42,944 nucleotides of DNA from Bacillota bacterium (GTDB taxonomy: Bacteria; Bacillota; Dehalobacteriia; UBA4068): NCBI GenBank assembly GCA_017440145.1, contig JAFSHU010000149.1:1-42944 (forward strand). The letters run 5' to 3'. Position numbers and translations under genes: made by a program. A model generated the notes under the pieces. The model saw only the letters and a list, made by a program, of their open reading frames with translations. It ran no database searches and was not told the DNA's origin. Positions 28,962-32,955 of the stretch are shown here, in pieces; within the stretch, counting starts at the first letter, position 1, and every line of letters starts with the position of its first letter.

Positions 28962-29546
28962 ATGAAGGAAATTTTGCTGCTGCTGCCAAAGGGTGCGGAG
29001 CTGTGGGAGGCTGCGGCCTTTACGGATGTGTTCGGCTGGAATCAGCTCTGCGGGGATAAAAGCTGCAGACTGCGGATCGCCGGTCCTGCCAAAGAGGTGG
29101 CGCTTAGCTTCGGCCATCGCATGCAGGCAGAGCTGCTCTGGGATGAGGTGGCGGCGGAGGATTACGCTGCCCTGGCTATCCCCGGCGGCTTCCCCCGCTA
29201 TGGCTATTTTCGCTGCTGCGGCCAGCGGCCCCTGGAGCTGATTCGCAGCTTTCACCGGGCGCAAAAGCCCATTGCCGCAGTATGCACCGGCAGCCTGCTG
29301 CTGGGGAAGGCCGGCATCCTGAATGGAAGGCAGGCTGCCACCTATTGCAGCGAAGACACGGATTTCCGGCAGCAGCTGGAAGCCTGCGGCGCCATCGTCT
29401 CCGGGGAAAGCCTGGTGGAGGATGGGAATCTGATCAGCGGCGCCGGGCCCGGCTCTGCCGCCCGGGTGGCGCTGGCTTTGCTGGCCCGCTGCAGCAGCCC
29501 GGAAAATGCAGCTCAAATAAAAAAACTGATGCTGTTTGAAAAATAG
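28962..29546 (+). CDS. DJ-1/PfpI family protein
   Basis: A class I glutamine-amidotransferase-like fold of 194 residues. The nucleophile-elbow cysteine is in AAVCTGSLLLGKAGILNG at about residues 106-123, and the conserved early Glu is in LLPKGAELWE. Relatives include DJ-1 type deglycases, chaperones and amidases; the specific reaction is not predictable. The closing ISGAGPGSAARVALALL is typical of the family. GAGAGG lies 10-15 bases upstream. Confidence 0.9.
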   Translation: MKEILLLLPKGAELWEAAAFTDVFGWNQLCGDKSCRLRIAGPAKEVALSFGHRMQAELLWDEVAAEDYAALAIPGGFPRYGYFRCCGQRPLELIRSFHRAQKPIAAVCTGSLLLGKAGILNGRQAATYCSEDTDFRQQLEACGAIVSGESLVEDGNLISGAGPGSAARVALALLARCSSPENAAQIKKLMLFEK

Positions 29547-29548
29547 AA

Positions 29549-29577
29549 TTGATTTTTGGGGAAAGATGTAGTATAAT
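29549..29577 (+). promoter_or_regulatory. Sigma-A promoter of the trpB leader
   Basis: TTGATT (29549-29554) and a perfect TATAAT (29572-29577) are separated by 17 bases. Transcription should start near 29584, about 305 bases before trpB. Confidence 0.88.
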
Positions 29578-29622
29578 AATCACCATCTTAAAAGCAAATT
29601 TATTTTGCCCCGGAGGTTTTCT

Positions 29623-29676
29623 ATGTTCCGTGTCGTTTGCCAGCTGAAACAAATTCTTCTTTCCGCAAACTGGTGA
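29623..29676 (+). CDS. Possible 17-residue leader peptide ending in Trp
   Basis: ATG 29623 lies 6 bases after GGAGG and opens a frame reading MFRVVCQLKQILLSANW. The only tryptophan codon (29671-29673) stands directly before the UGA stop. Its location between a strong promoter and an intrinsic terminator ahead of trpB suggests a regulatory peptide. Chance is possible because the frame is short. Confidence 0.5.
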   Translation: MFRVVCQLKQILLSANW

Positions 29677-29715
29677 TGCTTTGCTTACGGTATGGGCTGG
29701 ACAAACATCCGTTGG

Positions 29716-29745
29716 TCTCTGCGCTTTTGGCGTAGAGATTTTTTT
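29716..29745 (+). terminator. Intrinsic terminator inside the trpB leader
   Basis: TCTCTGCGC (29716-29724) pairs with GCGTAGAGA (29730-29738), one G-U, loop TTTTG, followed by seven T (29739-29745). It stands 143 bases before trpB and after the promoter, so full expression of trpB needs read-through or a second promoter. Confidence 0.9.
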
Positions 29746-29765
29746 ATTTCAAAGGGGGTCTAAGC

Positions 29766-29840
29766 ATGGCTTTATCTTCCCACGATAAAGCCCGCAGCTG
29801 GCAGGATGACCGGCAATCGGTGGGCAGGAAAGAAAAATAA
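29766..29840 (+). CDS. Possible 24-residue small ORF between terminator and trpB
   Basis: ATG 29766 follows AAAGGGGG with about 7 bases between and gives a 24-residue peptide with one Trp (ARSWQDD). A perfect 9-bp hairpin (GGCTTTATC at 29768-29776 with GATAAAGCC at 29784-29792) covers its first codons. It may be a second leader peptide or simply part of the folded leader. Confidence 0.3.
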   Translation: MALSSHDKARSWQDDRQSVGRKEK

Positions 29841-29888
29841 AACTGGCTTGATCGGCCAATGAAAATAGAATAATCGGAGGATAAGCCC

Positions 29889-31124
29889 ATGGCAAACAAA
29901 TACAGAGATTTTGATGATTATCTGCAGCATAACCCGGATGAGAACGGTTATTTCGGCAAATTCGGCGGTGCCTATCTGCCGGAGCAGCTGAAAGTGGCCT
30001 TTGAAGAGATCACCGTAGCTTATGAGACCATCGCCCAGAGCGCACAGTTCATCAATGAGCTGCGCCGCATCCGCAAGGAATTCCAGGGCCGCCCCACGCC
30101 GGTCTACCACTGTGAACGCCTCTCCAACAAGCTGGGCAAGACCCAGATCTACCTGAAGCGGGAGGATCTGAACCATACCGGCGCGCACAAACTGAATCAC
30201 TGCATGGGCGAGGGTCTGCTGGCCAAATATATGGGCAAGAAGAAGCTGATCGCGGAAACCGGCGCGGGCCAGCATGGTGTGGCTTTGGCTACGGCTGCCG
30301 CCTTCTTTGGCCTGGAATGCGACATCTATATGGGTGAAGTGGATATTGCCAAGCAGGCGCCCAATGTGACCCGTATGAAGATGCTGGGCGCCCGTGTCAT
30401 CCCGGTCAGCCACGGCCTGAAAACCCTCAAAGAAGCGGTGGATGCTGCTTTTGATGCATATTTGAAGGAATATGATACCGCGATTTACTGCATCGGCTCG
30501 GTGCTTGGCCCCCATCCCTTCCCCATGATGGTGCGGGATTTCCAGTCCATCCTGGGTGTGGAGGCCAGAGAGCAGTTCCTGGATATGACCGGCCATCTGC
30601 CGGATAAGGTCTGCGCCTGCGTGGGCGGCGGCTCCAACTCCCTGGGCATCTTCTCCGCCTTCCTGGCAGACCCGGTGGAGATTTACGGTGTTGAGCCTCT
30701 GGGCCGCGGCCCGCAGGTGGGCGATCATGCTGCCAGCATGAGCTATGGCAGCCCCGGCGTGATGCATGGCTTCTCCAGCATCATGCTCCAGGATGAGCAG
30801 GGCGAACCCCTGCCGGTCTATTCCATCGCCAGCGGTCTGGATTATCCCTCTGTGGGGCCGGAGCACGCTTATCTGCGTGATCTGGGGCGGGTGCATTATG
30901 TGACCGCCGATGACGAAGCCGCTATGGAAGCCTTCTTCCTGCTCTGCCGCTATGAAGGCATCATCCCGGCTCTGGAAAGCTCCCATGCTCTGGCTTACGC
31001 CATCAAAGTGGCTCGCGAAGGGAAGCCCGGCTCCATTCTGGTGAATCTCTCCGGCCGCGGGGATAAGGATATTGATTACGTCATGGAGCATTATGGGGAC
31101 GGTTCCCGTTTCTTTAACGAATAA
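29889..31124 (+). CDS. trpB: Tryptophan synthase beta subunit, without trpA beside it
   Basis: A PLP enzyme of 411 residues: indole + L-serine to L-tryptophan. The PLP lysine is in [13 protein letters not shown] at about residue 94, the catalytic Glu in AETGAGQHG, the phosphate-binding loop is GGGSNSLG, and the C-terminal LSGRGDKD is intact. The site differs slightly from the common HKINN/HKTNQ (here HKLNH). No trpA, trpC, trpD or trpE lies in the window. A lone trpB is consistent with salvage of external indole, or trpA elsewhere. ATCGGAGGATA precedes the ATG. Confidence 0.96.
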
Positions 31125-32619: not shown

Positions 32620-32955
32620 ATGGAGTATCTGACGCTGAAGCAGGCAGCGGAAGCTACCGATACCAGCTACGCCACATTGCGGCGGGATATTGAGAATGGA
32701 GTGTTGCCTGCATATAAGGTGGGGCGGAAATATTTTATCACCAGCGCCGCTGCAGAGATCTATGGGGAAAAGCGCCGGGCTGTTAATTCCATTGACGGCT
32801 ACACCATCCGTCAGGTTATGGAGATTTTGCCCCTGAGCTATGCTTATATCATTGAGCTGATCAAAAATGGCCGCCTGCCTGCAGTAAAGCGGGGACGCAG
32901 CTATATCATCGCCAAGACGGATCTGCAGAGCTTTATTGAGAAAGCGCAGTTATAA
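32620..32955 (+). CDS. Small protein with two tandem excisionase-type HTH domains
   Basis: A 111-residue protein built of two similar halves. Residues about 3-47 (YLTLKQAAEATDTSYATLRRDIENGVLPAYKVGRKYFI) and 61-108 (YTIRQVMEILPLSYAYIIELIKNGRLPAVKRGRSYII) each look like the HTH_17/excisionase winged helix. A single domain is usual for Xis-like proteins. GGGAGGATG lies upstream. It is not next to an integrase. It is probably a DNA-binding regulator; the target is unknown. Confidence 0.8.
   Translation: MEYLTLKQAAEATDTSYATLRRDIENGVLPAYKVGRKYFITSAAAEIYGEKRRAVNSIDGYTIRQVMEILPLSYAYIIELIKNGRLPAVKRGRSYIIAKTDLQSFIEKAQL

Follow-up and report, generated by a model that had tools for sequence, protein, structure and literature searches.

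We describe a lone trpB gene preceded, in this order, by a promoter, a short ORF ending in a tryptophan codon (ORF1), an intrinsic terminator and a second short ORF (ORF2) in a Bacillota genome (the window is the whole 42,944-nt stretch analysed, contig JAFSHU010000149.1). With moderate confidence, we read this leader as a two-tier leader-peptide sensor of tryptophan shortage, i.e. of shortage of charged tRNA-Trp, which would control a trpB that probably serves indole salvage. Tryptophan genes of Clostridia-like bacteria are usually regarded as being under T-box or TRAP control, and the whole arrangement occupies the place held by a tRNA-binding T-box in orthologous genes. The window leader (L001) was compared with that of a sister species (L002, TrpB 97% identical) and with two leaders of the same family (L003 and L004, TrpB 82–83% identical). 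As L001 and L002 are close kin, these amount to only three independent leaders. The features are collected in Table 1.

Table 1. Features of the trpB leader and gene (window positions).
Feature	Position	Strand	Remarks
Sigma70-type promoter, TTGATT-17-TATAAT	29549..29577	+	Scan, 10/12 match
Shine–Dalgarno sequence of ORF1, GGAGG	29612..29616	+	
ORF1, leader peptide MFRVVCQLKQILLSANW	29623..29676	+	17 codons, ATG at 29623
Hairpin B, GCU.RCGG(Y) with (R)CCGU.GGU	29683..29716	+	Loop of 11–12 nt; may be an antiterminator or a hairpin docked on the terminator
Intrinsic terminator	29714..29745	+	Scan; stem 29714–29740, U-run (U7) 29739–29745
Ribosome site of ORF2, GGGGG	29754..29758	+	Kept in L002 and L003
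ORF2 start region, 5' side of predicted long-range helix	29765..29780	+	Folding
ORF2, second leader peptide MALSSHDKARSWQDDRQSVGRKEK (...KARSW...)	29766..29840	+	Single Trp, codon 12 (29799–29801)
trpB ribosome site (Shine–Dalgarno, start codon), opposite (3') strand of that predicted helix	29876..29891	+	Folding
Lone trpB, tryptophan synthase beta	29889..31124	+	TIGR00263, 536 bits versus cut-off 392

An initial annotation of this DNA had listed a consensus promoter, a 17-codon frame with a good ribosome site whose only tryptophan codon stands before the stop, and a full intrinsic terminator ahead of trpB, and it had noted the absence of a T-box. All of these were recovered. The list was nonetheless incomplete: the ORF1 set is present as described, but ORF2, hairpin B and the base-pairing between the ORF2 start and the ribosome site of trpB had been overlooked. 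The sole Trp codon of ORF1 (29671–29673) adjoins its UGA stop (29674–29676), and the terminator between ORF1 and the gene folds with a predicted energy of −16.1 kcal/mol. An Rfam search of the leader, with E-values listed up to 5, placed no T-box or other RNA family near its gathering score, and the RF00230 covariance model gave no match there within that range. The DJ-1/PfpI-family protein gene at 28962–29546 ends right before the trpB promoter, as its counterpart does in the sister species. Elsewhere in the window, an S10-Clostridia ribosomal protein leader (RF03136, 40.4 bits) lies near the left end at 208–292, and a small excisionase-family DNA-binding protein is encoded at 32620–32955 (two stretches matched by TIGR01764), shortly downstream of the trpB region.

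The window and the sister species are identical at all 94 positions of 29656–29749, a segment that begins upstream of the ORF1 Trp codon and extends beyond the terminator, while fourfold-degenerate sites have changed at a rate of 0.24 in trpB and 35% in the upstream gene; by our own arithmetic, 94 unchanged sites would occur by chance with a probability below 1e-11 at the lower of these rates. The 5' leader (29581–29623) also carries zero substitutions. Codons 1–15 of ORF1, as read from the alignment, have evolved at an ordinary rate, with five changes, three of which alter the residue. A TATAAT box with 17-nt spacing precedes the L002, L003 and L004 leaders as well. The ORF1 peptides of the relatives are MFRIVCKLKQMLLSANW, MQNVHCVIANMLVSGRINW and MSHFQLFPLHMTCSGRINW; those of L003 and L004 come from 19-codon ORFs of unlike sequence that both end in S-G-R-I-N-W-UGA, and each has its own promoter, ribosome site and terminator. 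A translatable leader ORF with a Shine–Dalgarno sequence and a tryptophan codon is thus kept in three divergent leaders. Every homologous leader contains one Trp codon and none a run of at least two, which bears out the earlier remark that the single codon departs from the textbook trp model.

Despite the differences in the rest of the ORF, all leaders share the NW-UGA ending and, downstream of the stop, the block GCUURCGGYAUGRGC...RCCGU. The distance from the stop codon to the start of the terminator stem is 37, 37, 36 and 37 nt in L001, L002, L003 and L004, respectively. A covariance model of the block retrieved one site per genome, always in front of this trpB, in 4 of the 43 genomes of the class. 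Applied to the other 83 loci it retrieved no site, the next best score being 14.9 bits versus 76–81 bits for the true sites. A pattern search for the L003/L004 form of the block, allowing up to three mismatches, gave zero matches in 398 genomes of the phylum, and no match was found in a plasmid collection. We also considered read-through of the ORF1 stop codon into ORF2. The frame stays open for at least 28 codons in L001–L003, whereas L004 has a UGA after five codons, so this is not a conserved property.

How a ribosome on ORF1 might influence the terminator is less evident from the sequences. The initial annotation had proposed two competing stems (29635–29640 with 29665–29670, and 29635–29644 with 29696–29706). 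Both exist in the window, yet the relatives preserve neither. In the sister species, changes at 29640 and 29641 convert one stem pair to G-U and disrupt a second, and in L003 and L004 the sequence corresponding to 29696–29706 is A-rich and unrelated. Aligning relatives, as had been suggested, hence upheld the Trp-stop codons and not the stems. Folding with and without a ribosome did not reveal a switch either, since the terminator was formed in all ribosome states of all four leaders (footprints with 13–17 nt of downstream protection). A systematic search for an upstream strand able to pair with the 5' arm of the terminator yielded only weak or GU-rich partners that differ between lineages and no common antiterminator, in agreement with the earlier statement that none is clear. 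The general proposal of translation-dependent tryptophan attenuation in front of a lone trpB is well supported, both by orthologues that lie behind Trp T-boxes and by three divergent leaders in which Trp-UGA, terminator and spacing are conserved, although its particular stem switch is not conserved.

Hairpin B, formed by the post-stop block, is a candidate for such a connection. Its last three nucleotides (GGU) are the first three of the 5' arm of the terminator, and this is the whole of the overlap between them. Folded alone, it has energies of −7.8, −9.7 and −9.4 kcal/mol in the three lineages. In L003, its probability rises from 0.49 to 0.93–0.98 when a ribosome is placed at the Trp codon, whereas in L001 and L002 it mostly loses to other pairings of the leader in the folding model. 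None of its pairs shows a two-sided compensatory change among the three lineages. Considering this lack of covariation, the competition in L001 and L002 and the persistence of the terminator in every modelled state, we infer rather than observe the antitermination step. We suggest that, when tryptophan is present, ribosomes would complete ORF1 and depart, and RNA polymerase would halt at the terminator 37 nt further on. When tryptophan is short, a ribosome may wait at the only UGG of ORF1, its 3' edge lying against hairpin B, whose base overlaps that of the terminator, and read-through would rise. As the UGG directly precedes the UGA, a starved and a terminating ribosome would be only 3 nt apart, and nothing but the waiting time or a very sharp edge effect at hairpin B could tell them apart.

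A second Trp-codon ORF lies between the terminator and the gene and, judging from modelled structures, appears to be placed to act on the ribosome site of trpB. The counterparts of ORF2 are MALSPNDKARSWQNVQQAVGRE in L002 and, starting from GTG, VALLDGKARIWGEVIVEIG in L003; L004 lacks it. The motif ALxxxKARxW and the ribosome site of ORF2 are kept in the three genomes. The mean predicted probability that the trpB ribosome site is paired with the start of ORF2 is 0.74, 0.71 and 0.57 in L001, L002 and L003, respectively, compared with 0.12, 0.11 and 0.07 in dinucleotide shuffles, of which 0/300, 0/300 and 4/300 reached equally high values. L001 and L002 are too closely related to count as more than one case, and L003 is independent: its helix uses other partner bases, the strand being the ribosome site of ORF2 rather than its first codons. 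The ORF2–trpB region as a whole has an ordinary folding energy (z about −1.2), and the argument for sequestration accordingly rests on the specific pairing.

When the ORF2 start was blocked by a ribosome in the model, the probability that the trpB site is unpaired increased from 0.11, 0.20 and 0.25 to 0.46, 0.46 and 0.43 in L001, L002 and L003. A ribosome at the Trp codon of ORF2 alone left the site closed in the folding calculations, and adding one on the start opened it. This Trp codon is number 12 in L001 and L002 and number 11 in L003, so that a ribosome waiting there is separated from the start by 30 or 27 nt, about one ribosome length. From this distance and the requirement for a covered start, we infer that queueing is the step that opens trpB. 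In read-through mRNA, the start of ORF2 would pair with the Shine–Dalgarno sequence and start codon of trpB and keep the gene closed. If one ribosome waits at the Trp codon of ORF2, the following one would be held on the ORF2 start, and this queued ribosome, by covering the blocking strand, would free the trpB site. In the literature searched, we did not find ribosome queueing at a Trp codon that opens the ribosome site of the next gene described for amino-acid attenuators. The fuller claim, in which a single gene is controlled at two levels by two successive single-Trp leader peptides, one working through a conserved post-stop block without a classical antiterminator and the other through queueing, is offered tentatively, as a possibility that we would not yet bet on.

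The window TrpB is full-length, and its clade stands well apart from operon-type TrpB in the tree. Members of this lone TrpB clade (L001–L007 and L031–L111) are about 75–97% identical to the window protein and, according to their organism titles, come from Clostridia, Akkermansia, Mobiluncus and others; the clade is probably a widely transferred indole-salvage enzyme. Searches for trpA and trpC found neither gene in three of the four genomes (G000, G001 and G003), a provisional result as each of these is about 84% complete, while the controls were found in 14 of 14 cases. Genome G015 contains trpA and trpC, together with a canonical trpB. Given the result for the first three genomes, their lone TrpB probably makes tryptophan from indole and serine, and the window enzyme probably salvages indole scavenged by a gut-type bacterium. 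Incomplete tryptophan pathways that retain TrpAB have been reported in gut bacteria (PMC9026213).

Sensors in front of orthologous genes were surveyed in 86 lone-trpB loci with enough upstream sequence. A T-box was recognized by sequence in 19 of them; among the loci submitted to Rfam, five reached the gathering score and seven more had E-values below 1e-10. In the aligned T-box examples, the specifier position of the model alignments is UGG (Trp). These T-boxes on the same TrpB clade set the expected sense of regulation, with the gene on when tRNA-Trp is uncharged. Thirteen of the 86 loci also have, near trpB, a mini-ORF that has a ribosome site and contains CGA-UGG-YG in frame (giving RWR, RW-stop or RWC), against 0.02 expected in Markov-resampled sequence. 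They are borne by 11 of the 19 T-box loci and two others, the Arg codon is always CGA, and most lie between the Trp T-box terminator and the lone trpB. These mini-ORFs stand 54–195 nt upstream of trpB (L036, L040, L042, L043, L047, L048, L053, L056, L062, L063, L067, L099 and L106; also L039). The possibility that they generally sequester the trpB ribosome site was discarded, as this was clear only in L067 and borderline in L047. In the literature searched, which was covered in part, we found no description of RWR mini-ORFs or of the element in the window.

Two further leaders were observed in front of lone trpB genes. L005, from the same family as the window, has an unrelated leader peptide ending in PDWRWRL, MFTVNTDMHNANIRLLLNAPDWRWRL (with CGATGGCG), followed by a terminator, about 400 to 160 nt upstream of the gene. 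In a contig from a viral collection (L111:1863–1940), the leader MTFLRKYIFNQAGGNIWA has a single Trp codon; the 5' arm of an intrinsic terminator is made up of its codons for Ile-Trp-Ala-stop, and a waiting ribosome would block that terminator directly. Together with the T-box and mini-ORF loci, L005 and L111 support a shared sense, in which low tryptophan turns trpB on.

The closest competitor of the two-tier reading is a purely transcriptional attenuator consisting of ORF1 and the terminator, in which the Trp-stop hairpin, hairpin B and the terminator follow one another and hairpin B partly invades the base of the terminator when a ribosome is at the Trp codon, as in Corynebacterium glutamicum ilvBNC. 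It is compatible with L004, which has ORF1 and the terminator without ORF2, with the GGU overlap and with the response of hairpin B in L003, and a single-codon attenuator with overlapping hairpins is known (PMC11857589). Nevertheless, it leaves aside the pairing between ORF2 and the trpB ribosome site, which far exceeds that of shuffled sequences in three genomes, and the base of the terminator is kept in all modelled states; we consider it rather unlikely. The post-stop block (GCUURCGGYAUGRGC, an A-rich linker and RCCGU) could also be an H-type pseudoknot or a small ligand-binding RNA, with ORF1 being secondary. Standard pairs are found in 26 of the 27 cells of such a pseudoknot, each stem has a single consistent, one-sided change, compensatory changes are absent, and the block is better conserved than the 5' codons of ORF1. 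However, the nested hairpin B accounts for many of the same bases, the pair controls reveal no covariation, and the in-frame SD-ATG...NW-UGA of three lineages would have to be a coincidence, which makes this alternative improbable.

Stalling at the stop codon as in tnaC-type peptides, which the initial annotation had entertained, would have the nascent ORF1 peptide arrest at the UGA at high free tryptophan or indole and trpB induced as a result. The Trp codon does adjoin the UGA and NW-UGA is invariant, but the lineages share only N-W and an upstream Ser, without a conserved stretch that could contact the exit tunnel as in TnaC; moreover, the terminator is intrinsic, relatives use Trp T-boxes, and induction of a Trp-making enzyme by tryptophan makes little metabolic sense. 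We rate this mechanism slightly below the pseudoknot. Least probable of all is a terminator that is partial and constitutive, where the short ORFs are fortuitous and tryptophan has no effect. Intrinsic terminators are frequent and no antiterminator could be demonstrated, yet the Trp-UGA, the spacing and the block are strongly conserved and Trp T-boxes occupy the same place in relatives.

Under the two-tier interpretation, one TrpB clade would be served by interchangeable tryptophan sensors, namely a T-box with a mini-ORF, a peptide attenuator with a second peptide, and a Trp codon within a terminator stem. This is a natural series for studying how RNA sensors are swapped while the gene and the logic of its control persist. 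It also makes two notions testable, one Trp codon beside a stop as an attenuator and ribosome queueing as a translational switch.

TnaC is characterized by Trp12, a Pro24 before the stop, Rho-dependent termination and a tryptophanase gene downstream. The window leader resembles it in having a short tryptophan-containing leader peptide and putative regulation at the stop codon, but ORF1 lacks the TnaC-specific features: it ends in N-W-stop without a conserved inner stretch, and it precedes an intrinsic terminator and a biosynthetic trpB. A leader ORF with a Trp codon, an intrinsic terminator and a Trp-making gene are features that the window leader shares with the ribosome-mediated trp/his attenuators of enterobacteria and with those of trp in Actinobacteria (PMC1262725). 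Those attenuators have two or three Trp codons in a row, whereas here one stands before the stop and no mutually exclusive antiterminator was found, so the window element has only part of what defines a trp-type attenuator. The three-hairpin model of C. glutamicum ilvBNC indicates that overlap between neighbouring hairpins can suffice (PMC11857589), and the likeness extends to three serial hairpins, a middle one overlapping the terminator and few control codons; however, the amino acid and the organism are different, and the thermodynamics of the window leader do not support competition. The Trp T-box leaders (RF00230, UGG) of orthologous lone trpB genes agree in gene clade, place and expected sense, with a leader peptide here replacing the tRNA-binding RNA.

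Among known systems, the nearest in logic is the anti-TRAP (rtpA) leader of Bacillus subtilis, whose leader peptide, rtpLP, contains three Trp codons. In that leader, as far as it is summarized in PMC11255114 (citing Chen and Yanofsky 2003/2004), a T-box is followed by the rtpLP Trp leader peptide, and uncharged tRNA-Trp is sensed in tandem at the levels of transcription and translation. On that account, both leaders would sense Trp twice in succession, first ahead of a terminator and then through a mini-ORF that lies between the terminator and the gene and acts on the ribosome site of the latter. They differ in that the first sensor of the window is a leader peptide and not a Trp T-box, each peptide has one Trp codon instead of three, and the gene is trpB. 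Furthermore, about 35 nt separate the ORF2 stop from the Shine–Dalgarno sequence of trpB, and sequestration would operate through pairing with the ORF2 start. The relatives that combine a T-box with RWR mini-ORFs, on the other hand, resemble the anti-TRAP plan, set in front of trpB.
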